Positions 5,396 through 9,202 of a stretch of DNA of 9,202 nt are shown here, one piece after another. The stretch's first letter is position 1, and each line of letters begins with the position of its first letter. Position numbers and translations under genes: made by a program. Location: the NCBI GenBank assembly GCA_035527835.1, contig DATKZS010000104.1, positions 1 to 9,202 on the forward strand. Reading direction: 5' to 3'. The stretch comes from DATKZS01 sp035527835 [NCBI: bacterium]. GTDB taxonomy: Bacteria > RBG-13-61-14. Under the pieces are notes generated by a model. That model did not search any database and was not told the origin of the DNA. It saw only the letters and a program-made list of their open reading frames with translations.

Positions 5396-6427
5396 TCACT
5401 CCATCTCCCTGATCCGCTCGAGCAGCTCGCCCACCGCCGTTCCCTGGTAGGAATCGAGCAGCGGTTTTACCTTCTCGACGAAAGGCCTCTGGTCAGGGTA
5501 GTAAATCTTTGCACCCTCCTCCTGGGCCAGCTTCAGGGCCTCCTCGGTCTTCTCCTGCCAAAGCTTCCTCTGGTAGCGGGAGGCGTCATCCGCGGCCTGC
5601 TGCAGCCATGCCTTCACCTTCGGGTCGAGTCCTTGCCAGACCTCTTCGCTGATGAGCAGGATATCGGGAACGCGGGTGTGGCCGTCCATGGAGAAGTATT
5701 TACAGACCTCGTAGTGGCGGTTGCTGTAATAGCTGGGCGGGTTGTTCTCGGCGCCATCCACCACTCCCTGCTGGAGCGCGGTATAGAGCTCGCCCCAGGC
5801 GATGGGCGTTGGCGCGCCGCCCAAGGCCGAGACCATGCTGATGGCGGTTTTCGAGTTCATGACCCTGATCTTCAAGCCGGCCAGATCATCCGGGGTGAGC
5901 ACGGGCCTGTCCTTGGTGTAGAAGTTCCTGCTGCCGGAGTCGAAGTAACAAAGGCCGCGGAGGTTCTTGTCCACTCCGCCCAGAAGAAGTTCTTTGCCGA
6001 GCTCGCTGTCCAACACCCTCCAGTAGTGTTCGCGGTCCTTGAACACGTACGGCAGGCTGAACACGGCCATCGCGGGAATGAAGCCTTCCATGGGGGACGC
6101 CGAGGTCTTGGTCAGGTCCAGCGCGCCGTTTTGGAGCAGCTCGATGCATTCGGTTTCGCTGCCGATGACTCCGCTGGGATAGATGTCTATGGTTACGGCG
6201 CCGCCGGAGATTTCTTCGAGGCGTTCCTTCATGTATACCAGGGCGGCATGGACCGGGTGAGAGGGATCGAGAGTGTGGGCCAGTTTAAGGACCAGGACTC
6301 GATCTTTTTTATCGTGGGGCTCATCCAGATTCTGGAACCTCACCCAAACGGAGAAAACAATGGTGGCGATAAGGGCCCCCACCATGATTCCGGCCGCGAA
6401 ACCGGAGGATTTTTTTTCAGCCATCAT
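5396..6427 (-). CDS. dctP: TRAP transporter substrate-binding protein (DctP family)
   Basis: DctP-family proteins capture organic acid anions outside the inner membrane and deliver them to DctQ/DctM. This 343-residue protein has an N-terminal hydrophobic stretch (about 11-29), then the binding domains starting at RVLVLKLAHT. Family features include YPSGVIGSETECIELLQNG (83-101), FSLPYVF (123-129), Arg167 in SGSRNFY, and the GLKIRVMNS segment. Arg188 in that segment is the expected carboxylate-binding arginine. WGELYTALQQGVVDGAENN follows. The N-terminal segment has no obvious cleavage motif (IVFSVWVRFQ), so the protein may remain anchored. The start is ATG-ATG-GCT at 6427. The 265-bp element 6428-6692 directly abuts this codon, and no good ribosome-binding site is visible within it, so expression may be impaired. 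A TTG at 6445 is in frame but lies inside the element. Confidence 0.9.
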   Translation of the reverse strand: MMAEKKSSGFAAGIMVGALIATIVFSVWVRFQNLDEPHDKKDRVLVLKLAHTLDPSHPVHAALVYMKERLEEISGGAVTIDIYPSGVIGSETECIELLQNGALDLTKTSASPMEGFIPAMAVFSLPYVFKDREHYWRVLDSELGKELLLGGVDKNLRGLCYFDSGSRNFYTKDRPVLTPDDLAGLKIRVMNSKTAISMVSALGGAPTPIAWGELYTALQQGVVDGAENNPPSYYSNRHYEVCKYFSMDGHTRVPDILLISEEVWQGLDPKVKAWLQQAADDASRYQRKLWQEKTEEALKLAQEEGAKIYYPDQRPFVEKVKPLLDSYQGTAVGELLERIREME

Positions 6428-6692
6428 CAGTGCTGTCCAAAACAAACGAACCGGAAAACCGCCATGGCGCCAAGAACGCCAAGCATCATGATTTTATTTA
6501 AATCTCAGTCCAGCTTCCGGCCAAATGATTCTTTCTTGGCGCTCCCGCCGGCCGGTTCGCCAAGCAGGTTGGGGCCAAAGCCCTGGAGCTGTTTTTCAGT
6601 CCCGCCGCAAAGAAACACCAGGATTTACTCGGCGATTCTTGGCGTTCTTGGCGCCTTGGCGGTTTTCTTAGCTCCTATTTGGGACAAGGGTG
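6428..6692. mobile_element. 265-bp MITE-like palindromic element, copy 1
   Basis: The ends are imperfect terminal inverted repeats: CAGTGCTGTCCAAAA on the left, and CACCCTTGTCCCAAA when the right end is read on the minus strand. Inside are long arms 6455-6483 and 6638-6666, which pair at 28 of 29 positions. A separate internal hairpin lies at 6535-6564 (CTTGGCG...CGCCAAG). The element is bounded exactly by the 9-bp direct repeat AGCCATCAT at 6419-6427 and 6693-6701, a likely target-site duplication. There is no transposase, so it would need one supplied elsewhere. A second copy begins at 9063. It separates kduI from dctP inside the operon. Confidence 0.8.
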
Positions 6693-6701
6693 AGCCATCA
6701 T
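6675..6701 (-). CDS. Eight-codon leader ORF made by element insertion
   Basis: The right-hand copy of the duplicated target restores ATG-ATG-GCT at 6701, the original dctP start, and continues into the element as MMAHPCPK before TAG at 6675-6677. GAAGG lies five bases upstream, apparently the ancestral dctP ribosome-binding site. If translated, ribosomes leaving kduI would make this octapeptide and stop about 250 bases before dctP. It is probably an insertion by-product without function. Confidence 0.4.
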   Translation of the reverse strand: MMAHPCPK

Positions 6702-6732
6702 GAAAGCCTTCGGGTTTGGAGAATCTCGCCGC

Positions 6733-7563
6733 TCACTTCAGGTCGTGAACCGGGATCTGGTCCATGTCCGTGAAGTCCTGGTTCTCGCCGCCCATTCCCC
6801 AAACGAAGCAATAGGCCCCGGTGCCCACGCCGCTGTGGATGCTCCACAGGGGAGATACCACGGCCTGCCGGTTTTTTACCACGAGGTGGCGGGTCTCGCC
6901 GGGCGGGCCCATCAGGTGGAACAGGATGGCGTCGTCCGCCAGGTTGAAGTAAAGGTAAACCTCGGTGCGCCGCTCGTGGGTGTGGGCGGGCATGGTGTTC
7001 CACACGCTGCCCTCCTTGATCTCGGTGTAGCCCATTACGAGCTGCGAGCTCTTGATCCCCCCGGGATGGATGTACTTGTTCAGGGTCCGGACGTTGGCCT
7101 CCTTCCGCGAACCCAGCTCCACCACCTCGGCGTCGCTCTTCTTGGCGTGGGTGGTCATGTGCTCGGCGTGGGCCGGGTAGCTCAAGATGTAGTACATGGC
7201 CGGCGCCTTCGGGTCGGCGCTCGCGAAAGACACCTCTTTCGATCCCCGGCCGATGTACAGGAACTCGAGGTTGGCCATCTTGAAAGACTTGCCGTCCACC
7301 GTGATGGCGCCGGCATCCCCGATATTGATGACGCCGGCCTCGCGACGCTCGCAGAAGTAGTCGGCCGCAAGCTCTTTGCCCGCCTCCAGCTCGAGAGCCC
7401 CTTTTACCGGCACGGCCGAGCCGACCACCACCCGCTCGACCTCGCAGTACTCGAGGCATAACTCGCCCGCCCTGAAAAGGTCCTCGATCAGAAACTCCTT
7501 GCGGACCTCGTCCGTGGTCATCCTCGCATAGCGGACCCGGTCGGCGGCGTACCTGGTCTTCAT
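6733..7563 (-). CDS. kduI: 4-deoxy-L-threo-5-hexosulose-uronate ketol-isomerase (KduI)
   Basis: KduI isomerises 4-deoxy-5-ketouronate (the spontaneous product of unsaturated uronates) to 2,5-diketo-3-deoxygluconate in the cytoplasm, feeding KduD. The 276-residue protein has full KduI length. Its cupin metal site is intact: His194, His196 and Glu201 in PAHTHERRTE, and His243 in SIHSGVGTGAYCFVWGMGGEN. These match the E. coli zinc ligands with a shift of two. Other family segments are HPGGIKSSQLVMGYT and the N-terminal MKTRYAADRV. The ATG at 7563 overlaps the TGA of the upstream DUF4861 gene (ATGA), with GGAGAG nine bases upstream, so the two are translationally coupled. Downstream, dctP was ancestrally about 31 bases away but is now separated by the inserted element. 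Confidence 0.95.
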   Translation of the reverse strand: MKTRYAADRVRYARMTTDEVRKEFLIEDLFRAGELCLEYCEVERVVVGSAVPVKGALELEAGKELAADYFCERREAGVINIGDAGAITVDGKSFKMANLEFLYIGRGSKEVSFASADPKAPAMYYILSYPAHAEHMTTHAKKSDAEVVELGSRKEANVRTLNKYIHPGGIKSSQLVMGYTEIKEGSVWNTMPAHTHERRTEVYLYFNLADDAILFHLMGPPGETRHLVVKNRQAVVSPLWSIHSGVGTGAYCFVWGMGGENQDFTDMDQIPVHDLK

Positions 7564-8735
7564 GGCTTCTCTCCATTAACGATCTTCACGGCTACCGGGT
7601 TGGCCTGGCGCTCGATGAAGCTCTCGAGGTAGCTCTCCCACTGCTCGCGGGTAACTATCTCGCCGGCCTTTTCCCAGCCGTAGCCCGCGAAATAAGTGAA
7701 CTCGCCGTCCGCTCCGGGGGCGACCACGTAAAAGGCGTTACCCTCGAATTTCTTCTTCGAGTCAACGAGCTTGTAGTCCCCGATTATCCCCGGGGGCACC
7801 ACCACGCCGGTGCCGAGGGGGTGCCCGTCTATGTCCTCCCAGCAGTAGAGGTAACCCTTCGAGCGGTCGTGAAACGCCTTGGCCTTTCCCTCGTGGGTGG
7901 ACAGCCCCACGGCCACCCGTGGATTGGCCGGCTTGCCGTCCACGTAAAATTTTTCCCTGACCTCGAACATGCGCGAGCCCAGGTCAAGGGTTATGCGCCT
8001 GGTTTCGGTGATCCGCTTGCCGTCCACTTCCCAGGGGCCGTAGCTCAGTACGAACGATGCCCGGAGAGGGCCGTTGCTGAACTGCCTCCACTCGCGGTAA
8101 ACATTCGACATGTGCCGCAGGCCGCCGGACCAGATGGCCGTGCCGCCGCCGCCAAGCGAGCTTCCGACCTTGTAGCCGTCGTAGCCCTCGCCATAGTCGA
8201 GGTGATAGCTCTTGCCGAGCTTCTCCCCCTTGTACCAGCCGTCCACGACCGGGTACTTGACCCGCTTCATGAAACAGTCGAACCCGCTGTTCTCCACCCC
8301 GTTCGCCAGGGCGGGCCCATAGGCGCGGTAGGCGATTACGTCGTTCTCCCAGGCGAAGTCGTCGGCGCGCTCGGGAACGAACCGGGCGTAAACCCGGGAA
8401 GCGCTTTCGGGGATATTCAACGAGGAGTCAGCCGCGATCTTGAAGCTCTTGGCCTCGCCGCCCAAGAGATCGGTCATGAATAGCAGCTCGTCCACGCCGC
8501 CGTCGCCGTCATTATCAATGGCCTGGCTGAGCGCGGCCTTGCCGGCCGGGTCCACCACCCTGGCGTTTTCTTTCGTGAGGCCCGAAACGCCGCCCGACAG
8601 CTCGTTCCAATCGAGCGCGATAATCTCGCCGCTTCTCGCCGCGGCAAGGGGATTCGAAACCTCCACGGTCAGCTCTTCCGCGTTGGCCGTGAAAACCGGC
8701 ATGGCAATCACCAAAAAAAAGAGAACATTTTTCAT
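7560..8735 (-). CDS. Exported DUF4861 domain protein
   Basis: This 391-residue protein has a Sec-type signal peptide (MKNVLFFLVIAMPVFTANA, cleavage likely after residue 19), so it should act in the periplasm or outside the cell. The body matches what I recall of DUF4861 proteins: RFVPERADDFAWENDVIAYR, then RVKYPVVDGWYKG, YHLDYGEGYDGYKVGSSLGG, GTAIW, a WRQFSNGPLRASFVLSY strand, and TETRRITLDLGSRMFEV. The fold appears beta-rich. Such proteins often lie in polysaccharide-utilisation loci, but I know of no firmly assigned activity, so a role in processing or binding uronic-acid glycans is inferred from the operon. I chose the ATG at 8735 because GGAGGT (8742-8747) lies six bases upstream; a GTG at 8738 would be only three bases away. 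It is the first gene of the operon and overlaps kduI by four bases. Confidence 0.85.
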   Translation of the reverse strand: MKNVLFFLVIAMPVFTANAEELTVEVSNPLAAARSGEIIALDWNELSGGVSGLTKENARVVDPAGKAALSQAIDNDGDGGVDELLFMTDLLGGEAKSFKIAADSSLNIPESASRVYARFVPERADDFAWENDVIAYRAYGPALANGVENSGFDCFMKRVKYPVVDGWYKGEKLGKSYHLDYGEGYDGYKVGSSLGGGGTAIWSGGLRHMSNVYREWRQFSNGPLRASFVLSYGPWEVDGKRITETRRITLDLGSRMFEVREKFYVDGKPANPRVAVGLSTHEGKAKAFHDRSKGYLYCWEDIDGHPLGTGVVVPPGIIGDYKLVDSKKKFEGNAFYVVAPGADGEFTYFAGYGWEKAGEIVTREQWESYLESFIERQANPVAVKIVNGEKP

Positions 8736-8741
8736 CACGGG

Positions 8742-8828
8742 ACCTCCATCATGTGAGCCTTGGAGCCCCGGCTCTGCCGGGGACCAGGGCGGAACCTGGA
8801 CTTGCCTTCAAGATTTAATACATCGCAA
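8742..8828 (-). promoter_or_regulatory. Operon leader with two hairpins
   Basis: The predicted untranslated leader of about 90 bases contains a perfect 7-bp stem with a 3-base loop (8766-8782, CCCCGGC-AGA-GCCGGGG on the minus strand). A second 5-bp stem with a 6-base loop lies at 8784-8799. Both sit upstream of the GGAGGT ribosome-binding site (8742-8747). They could stabilise the message, act as an attenuator, or be a REP-like remnant. There is no T-run after the stems, so they do not resemble a standard terminator. Confidence 0.4.
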
Positions 8829-8834
8829 GGTTCT

Positions 8835-8863
8835 ACTATATATGCCGATACCCTTGTCATCAA
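8835..8863 (-). promoter_or_regulatory. Probable sigma70-type promoter of the uronate operon
   Basis: On the minus strand TTGATG (8858-8863) and TATAGT (8835-8840) are separated by 17 bases. The -10 matches the consensus at five of six positions and the -35 at four. Transcription would start near 8828. No clear KdgR-like operator is visible. This is the best candidate upstream of the DUF4861 gene. Confidence 0.5.
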
Positions 8864-8880
8864 GCTCTCAGGCCTATGCA

Positions 8881-9060
8881 ATGCCGAATAGCAAAATGGC
8901 GGAAGCCATCAGGACCGCCTTGACCCGTCTTGCGTGGCTCCGGTTGGACCGGTCCGTGCCGAAGTCCTGTTTGAGACTCGCCTGCCATACCGGCATGAGG
9001 CGAGGTGAAATTATGAATCTGACTTGGGATATGGCCGATATGGAAAATGCAAGAAGCTAA
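8881..9060 (+). pseudogene. Tyrosine recombinase (phage integrase) remnant
   Basis: The 59-codon stretch ending at TAA 9058-9060 contains LACHTGMRRGEIMNLTWD, the signature around the first catalytic arginine of tyrosine recombinases (integrase/XerC family). A functional enzyme would continue for roughly 120 or more residues, with the H-x-x-R motif and catalytic tyrosine. Here the frame stops shortly after, and the palindromic element copy 2 begins three bases later. The upstream residues resemble an integrase core only loosely, so frameshifts or deletion are likely. The frame is open upstream only because it shadows the DUF4861 gene. This is a dead fragment, a sign that an integrative element once lay here. 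Confidence 0.7.
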
Positions 9061-9062
9061 TA

Positions 9063-9202
9063 CAGTGCTGTCCAAAATAAACGGACCGGAGAACCGCCAA
9101 GACGCCAAGAGCGCCAAGGATTATTTTTCAACACGATTTTAAGAGGGCTTGGGTGCGAATGTTTCTTGCTTGGCGCTCCCGTCGGCCGGTCCGCCAAGCC
9201 GG
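9063..9202. mobile_element. MITE-like palindromic element, copy 2 (cut by window end)
   Basis: The first 56 bases (9063-9118) match copy 1 (6428-6483) at 50 positions, starting with the same CAGTGCTGTCCAAAA end. The central hairpin 9169-9198 matches 6535-6564 closely and lies at nearly the same distance. The 50 bases between these blocks are much less conserved, suggesting that only the structured parts are constrained. If it has the length of copy 1, it should end near 9327, beyond the window. Confidence 0.8.

Follow-up and report, generated by a model that had tools for sequence, protein, structure and literature searches.

A palindrome-bearing 265-bp element in front of dctP is very probably a MITE moved by an IS4/DUF4372-type transposase

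A 265-bp non-coding element sits directly in front of the sugar-acid transporter gene dctP in the stretch of DNA analysed here (9,202 nucleotides, called the window). Judged from its sequence, this element is very probably a MITE moved in trans by an IS4-family transposase of the DUF4372 type. The assignment follows from the ends of the element, the length of the duplication at its flanks and the elements found in other genomes. It is short and has no functional transposase gene or remnant of one, its terminal inverted repeats are like those of the autonomous family (CA(N4)TGTCC at both ends), and its 9-bp duplication has the length seen in the parent family. What moves seems to be any sequence bounded by the CA(N4)TGTCC ends, and the element is most likely of an ordinary mobile-element kind with an unusual palindromic filling. 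MITEs are typically shorter than 500 bp, according to the available text of PMC10969869.

Results

An exact 9-bp duplication at the start of dctP

The direct repeat AGCCATCAT flanks the 265 bp on both sides (Table 1); the identity covers exactly nine bases, with 0 bases of extension leftward. Within the window this 9-mer occurs only at those two sites and not on the opposite strand, and exact 9-mer direct repeats with a spacing of 245 to 304 number five among 535,110 position/spacing combinations. When the flanks are joined without the element, a 31-base gap between kduI and dctP results, with GAAGG five bases before the ATG. The original prediction had described an exact 9-bp duplication with no matching base beyond it, had identified the 9-mer on the minus strand as the first three codons of dctP and had reconstructed the same 31-base gap with its GAAGG; all of this was confirmed. 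It had also placed the insertion into the dctP start codon, which has to be corrected: the start codon is uninterrupted, codons 1 to 3 are duplicated and the element lies immediately upstream of the retained ATG. Judged from the perfect duplication, a recent insertion event is plausible.

The ends of the element are imperfect inverted repeats in which 11 of the 17 outermost bases are identical (chance 6e-4 at equal base frequencies), and both fit the form CA(N4)TGTCC. The GCCAAG arms of the palindrome start 31 and 30 bases inward from the two ends. Folding of the element was better than that of all shuffles, with a z of -5.9 as DNA and of -5.0 as RNA including the flanks. There are two copies within 9.2 kb, the second being incomplete at the end of the window, and the homology to this second copy (9063) sets in immediately after the left 9-mer. 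The window has 0 matches in Rfam at the gathering score, tblastn with four transposases found no transposase remnant in the element (best E 4.8), and no IS4/DUF4372 transposase gene was seen within the window.

Table 1. Positions of the element, its parts and the adjoining genes in the window.
Feature	Position	Strand	Remark
Target-site duplication, dctP-side copy	6419..6427	-	ATGATGGCT on the - strand, dctP codons 1-3
Target-site duplication, kduI-side copy	6693..6701	-	likely native Shine-Dalgarno still precedes
265-bp non-autonomous element (probable MITE)	6428..6692	.	delimited by the 9-bp duplication, the inverted ends and the homology start in the copy at 9063
Left end CAGTGCTGTCCAAAACAAAC	6428..6447	+	compared with the ends of L121, L155 and L162
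Right end, inward reading CACCCTTGTCCCAAATAGGA	6673..6692	-	compared with the ends of L121, L155 and L162
Element ends CAGTGCTGTCCAAAA / CACCCTTGTCCCAAA			form near which the ends of parent IS4/DUF4372 elements would fall
Left GCCAAG arm CCGCCATGGCGCCAAGAACGCCAAG	6459..6483	+	repeat analysis
Right GCCAAG arm, inverted	6638..6662	-	repeat analysis
Inner stretch CTTGGCGCTCCCGCCGGCCGGTTCGCCAAGCA, partly self-complementary	6535..6566	.	counterpart present in second copy
Second copy, same orientation, truncated by window end	9063..9202	+	31/34 first bases as in the element
Left 9-base flank of second copy, AAGCTAATA	9054-9062		
dctP, TRAP transporter substrate-binding protein (PF03480), intact frame	5396..6427	-	
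kduI, 5-dehydro-4-deoxy-D-glucuronate isomerase (NF002091)	6733..7563	-	
GAAGG, likely native dctP Shine-Dalgarno	6707..6711	-	now 274 bp farther from the dctP ATG
New 8-codon frame (MMAHPCPK, stop)	6675..6701	-	original start site reading into the element end

Genomes for comparison were taken from the phylum of G001 or G393 (L004: Planctomycetota bacterium), called here the Planctomycetota sample, and from the phylum of G002 (L006: Terriglobia bacterium), called the Acidobacteriota sample. The best relatives of KduI showed 57-59% identity in the Acidobacteriota sample (247 genomes) and 59% in one class of the Planctomycetota sample (198 genomes), while the best relative of DctP reached 56% (Planctomycetota sample, 246 genomes) and KduD was 63-65% identical in two loci. 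No DctP relatives were found in 28 genomes from the phylum of G003. Among the relatives' loci from the sampled genomes there was no empty kduI-dctP junction, and in the loci up to L040, mostly with 1.5-kb flanks, dctP and kduI never occurred together.

Other palindromic repeats were also seen in the window. A large nested palindrome at 2377-2763 has CACGGAT-type inner arms (2463-2505 and 2645-2687) and outer inverted arms CTGTACATTTCAGAGTGGATGATACT and AGGATGATCCACTCTCGAGTGCACAG. It holds TTTCAT at 2403 and at 2735; as the inversion runs on outward, this pair is at most a possible target duplication. Positions 1-100 contain a third palindrome built along similar lines, AACCACTAAGGCACTAAGGGCACGAAGG ... 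CTTCGTGCTCTTTGTGTCTTTGTGGTT. With repeats at 1-100 and at 9063-9202, both ends of the window therefore lie in repeats, as in a contig broken at repeats. A minus-strand frame of 516 aa at 639-2189 has no match in Pfam or NCBIfam at E <= 1e-5.

Autonomous IS4/DUF4372 elements with the same ends and duplication length

In the available text of a survey of the IS4 family, the family is defined by a DDE transposase encoded in a single frame, by the Y(2)R(3)E(6)K motif and by duplications of about one helix turn, and its subgroup IS4Sa is listed with ends CA------T and direct repeats of 8-10 bp (PMC2266710, Table 1). The three conserved letters of the IS4Sa ends are present at either end of the window element; a placement beside this subgroup would follow from the end consensus and the duplication length only, and we offer it as a comparison. 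The IS4Sa end consensus prompted a search for parents among transposases with DUF4372 (PF14294).

In the Planctomycetota sample, PF14294 transposase matches were present in 11 of 246 genomes and 15 loci were retrieved, most of them with ends of the CA(N4)TGTCC form (absent from L118 and L119). All seven strict pairs of transposase size (1,317-1,367 bp) carry an exact 9-bp duplication, and three other strict pairs (389, 487 and 1,790 bp) carry none. Five of the seven elements (L109, L110, L111, L120 and L122) are closely similar copies of a single element, inserted at different sites, with transposases 93-100% identical, so that there are fewer independent element types than insertions. With mismatches allowed, L114 gave a 1,431-bp pair with 9 bp. 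Reversed or scrambled motifs gave no pair with a duplication in these 15 loci.

The Acidobacteriota sample had matches in 18 of 199 genomes, from which 29 loci were retrieved. Ten strict pairs were found here, with 9 bp in L153, L156 and L162. L149, L155, L157 and L169 start two bases or less from a contig end and were excluded from the duplication count; no duplication accompanied L151 (a 1,328-bp pair), a pair of 469 bp or an alternative pair of 1,081 bp. Taking both samples together, of 11 strict pairs of transposase size that could be tested, 10 have 9 bp duplicated (3/4 in the Acidobacteriota sample), five of these ten pairs being close copies of one element. The control motifs, run over all loci of both samples, yielded four pairs and no duplication.

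The transposases of L121, L111, L155 and L162 all scored 248-280 bits against the IS4 family transposase model NF033592 (cut-off 115), contain both PF14294 and PF01609 and show the YREK motif. In comparison with L121, L155 and L162, the left end of the window element agrees at 14, 16 and 16 of 20 bases with the end that lies downstream of the transposase and at 13, 15 and 12 with the upstream one; for the right end the figures are 15, 15 and 13 of 20 with the upstream and 12, 13 and 12 with the downstream end. The left end of the second copy agrees with the downstream end of L155 at 17/20. The better match for each window end thus falls in one polarity in all three elements, by a margin of 1-4 bases (16 vs 15 for the left end in L155), and this shared polarity may be taken as a hint. 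The window element is therefore like L121, L155 and L162 in its terminal sequence, and like L121 and L162 in its 9-bp duplication; unlike them, it is non-coding and measures 265 bp.

Short elements in an Acidobacteriota genome

A genome of 1.9 Mb in the Acidobacteriota sample, G075, has 66 occurrences of the end pattern, where the backward control has 10; none of six further genomes had more of them than its control. From 48 stretches of G075 (L208-L255), which cover most, not all, of the 66 matches, we extracted 31 short elements that are complete and 123-670 bp long. A perfect 9-bp duplication flanks 14 of the 31, eight of nine bases match in four and six or fewer in 13; among 5,208 shifted controls, 9/9 was seen in 7 and 8/9 in 47. 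By tblastn, five of the 31 match a DUF4372 transposase in its first 37 or its last residues, and in L213 the N-terminal and C-terminal transposase pieces adjoin, as after an internal deletion in an IS. These elements have CA(N4)TGTCC-type ends and 9-bp duplications as the window element does, but differ from it in their interiors, with 0 GCCAAG repeat pairs in the retrieved stretches. Transposase remnants persist in five of them, whereas the window element has only its ends in common with the IS. Short elements that combine CA(N4)TGTCC ends with a 9-bp duplication are demonstrated separately in G075. The transposition event with a 9-bp target duplication that had been proposed for the dctP junction is thereby supported, since the end rule and the length recur in the IS4/DUF4372 and in the G075 elements.

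Alternative origins of the insertion

We consider it barely credible that the 9-bp repeat arose by chance or in assembly with no insertion having taken place. A shared 9-mer anywhere between two 66-base flanks does appear in about 1% of shuffles (214/20,000); however, the 9-mer observed falls exactly at boundaries that have independent support, the left one from the second copy and both from the inverted ends; shuffling the window 300 times produced five end pairs and 0 with a 9-bp duplication, and the joined flanks form an operon junction with a Shine-Dalgarno. A MITE of another 9-bp-duplicating family, such as ISAs1, the IS903/IS5 group, IS1 or others, is very improbable, since DUF4372 elements agree with the window element at both ends and in duplication length. 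This explanation draws on the fact that several transposase families generate 8-10 bp duplications, and on MITEAba12, whose ends GGCTTTGTTGC we take to be of the IS5 type. The available text of PMC6382973 gives MITEAba12 these ends together with 9-bp duplications; like the window element it is a small passenger element, and it disrupts a gene, but its ends differ, it has 113 bp, and its proposed parent IS lies in the same genome.

ISAs1 was rejected as a parent, the ends of ISAs1-type elements in two genomes of the Planctomycetota sample (CAGGGCGAACGCATGTA, CAGGGCCAGCGCATATG and CAGGGCGAGGACATTTA; CAGGGC...) being unlike those of the window element. In the text available for two further MITEs, BrickBuilt has repetitive filling and long stem-loops, with other ends and duplications of variable length (PMC4596501), and Chunjie lies within an operon, with ends that differ from those of the window element (PMC10969869). 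Among the titles and abstract openings listed from the open-licence literature, no paper on the element or on a DUF4372-type MITE was found, and the matches listed for the letters of the repeat concerned only unrelated subjects.

The GCCAAG palindrome as a passenger

Outside the window, the palindromic core is more widespread than the element. The element matches at E <= 0.01 in 53 of 343 genomes of the Planctomycetota sample, the better matches nearly all to the core, in a scan that scored two candidates per genome. A contig scan of genomes for the left end followed by the GCCAAG arm returned five hits, all judged chance; a looser end-plus-arm pattern gave 25 matches (24 genomes) in 314 genomes of the Planctomycetota sample compared with 32 in the backward control, and 0 of these 25 loci had the pair of ends. 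Viral contigs yielded three hits to the left end, judged chance, and none to the inner palindrome, and the element was absent from phage records. In plasmid records, 19 weak matches to the element were found, including two in Nostoc that hold the GCCAAG core and one in Ensifer, and blastn with the ends only found nothing.

The GCCAAG palindromes of the Planctomycetota sample resemble that of the window element in the core around CTTGGCGTTCTTGGCGCCTTGGCGG, with up to 100% identity over 27 bases; they differ from it in having no CA(N4)TGTCC pair and no significant duplications. That such a palindrome is itself the mobile unit, REP-like or self-standing and with the outer 30 bases included, would account for its abundance in some genomes (74 core matches vs 0 backward in G759, and 0 in G260) and for the mostly convergent arrangement of neighbouring cores (17 of 20 pairs > <, 2 << and 1 <>). 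We nevertheless regard it as very unlikely. Flanking direct repeats of at least 8 bp accompany 3/25 palindromes and 22/600 mismatched flanks (p = 0.07), so that neither a significant excess of duplications nor a common terminus marks the palindrome boundary in the 25 pairs; the pair of CA(N4)TGTCC ends is found at 0/60 of the GCCAAG loci retrieved from the Planctomycetota sample; in the two Nostoc plasmid elements the ends around the single GCCAAG arm are of another kind altogether (GGACTTACGCA); and the ends of the window element resemble those of an IS instead. The original prediction that this class of non-coding palindrome transposes is consequently left unsupported, both by the flanking repeats, whose excess is not significant, and by the 60 loci, from which the end pair is absent. 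Given these two results and the Nostoc arm between other ends, the palindrome is most likely a passenger sequence able to sit in different vehicles.

Further variety was seen among these palindromes. Five loci of G759 (L084, L092, L094, L096 and L105) hold GCCAAG palindromes of 124-147 bp whose outer flanks also seem to be inversely repeated (for example AAATTGAACCGCC / GGCGGTTCAATTC), with no evident target duplications. Nested palindromes also occur in the Planctomycetota sample, where L054 has a GCCAAG palindrome within a CGCAGAT-type one and L050 a GCAGAG-type one within a GCCAAG palindrome.

Gene context and predicted effect on dctP

The minus-strand genes of the window are DUF4861, kduI, dctP, dctQ, dctM and kduD, and dctP is probably co-transcribed with dctQ, dctM and kduD. 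As originally proposed, the coding sequence of dctP is intact and its likely native ribosome-binding site has been displaced (by 274 bp); this Shine-Dalgarno now stands ahead of a second ATGATGGCT, which opens the 8-codon frame. MITEs change expression by several routes, as outlined in the available text of PMC10969869, and here we infer that the insertion lowers translation of dctP. That it is instead neutral for dctP, or even a source of expression signals, is somewhat less probable and keeps appreciable weight: the dctP coding sequence is whole, and a GGA triplet ends 8 bases ahead of the retained ATG (TTTTGGACAGCACTGATG). Against this, a simple consensus scan of 6300-6800 found no promoter-like site, the likely native Shine-Dalgarno has moved away from dctP, and a very stable hairpin has been brought in between kduI and dctP. 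Under the preferred reading of lowered translation, weak initiation at the retained ATG by way of the GGA might still possibly keep the effect mild.

The two copies of the element, in the same orientation, bracket kduI and the DUF4861 gene (6428-9202), and this gene pair could be movable or losable as a MITE-flanked unit.

Discussion

Insertion by a staggered cut followed by fill-in is the chemistry of the IS4 family. In the mechanism that we propose for the window element, a DDE transposase of the IS4 family that bears DUF4372 at its N-terminus would be provided in trans and act on the CA(N4)TGTCC ends; a 9-bp staggered cut at dctP codons 1-3 would receive the element, and fill-in of the stagger would leave ATGATGGCT duplicated, the GCCAAG palindrome being carried along as passenger filling between the mobile ends. 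As a result, dctP would be translated less well, the likely Shine-Dalgarno serving the 8-codon frame 274 bp upstream, and the long hairpin between kduI and dctP would add to the weaker translation.

It is conceivable, though we think it rather unlikely, that the GCCAAG palindrome is a module shared across phyla that was taken up independently by unrelated MITEs, one of the IS4 type and one of the GGACTTACGCA type in Nostoc. If this is true, the uptake perhaps occurred because a long conserved hairpin protects the element, its transcripts or the host operon, and MITEs would be one vehicle by which GCCAAG palindromes spread between genomes.

The analysis allows a palindromic repeat whose origin had been obscure to be given a name, as a likely passenger of IS4/DUF4372 transposases. 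It also keeps the moving part, the transposon ends, distinct from what is probably cargo, the GCCAAG palindrome between them; the two are easy to confuse. The signature of CA(N4)TGTCC ends with a 9-bp duplication can be searched for in any genome. With its insertion at codons 1-3 and the protein left untouched, the element in front of dctP would offer a natural test of the effect of a MITE on translation in an operon.
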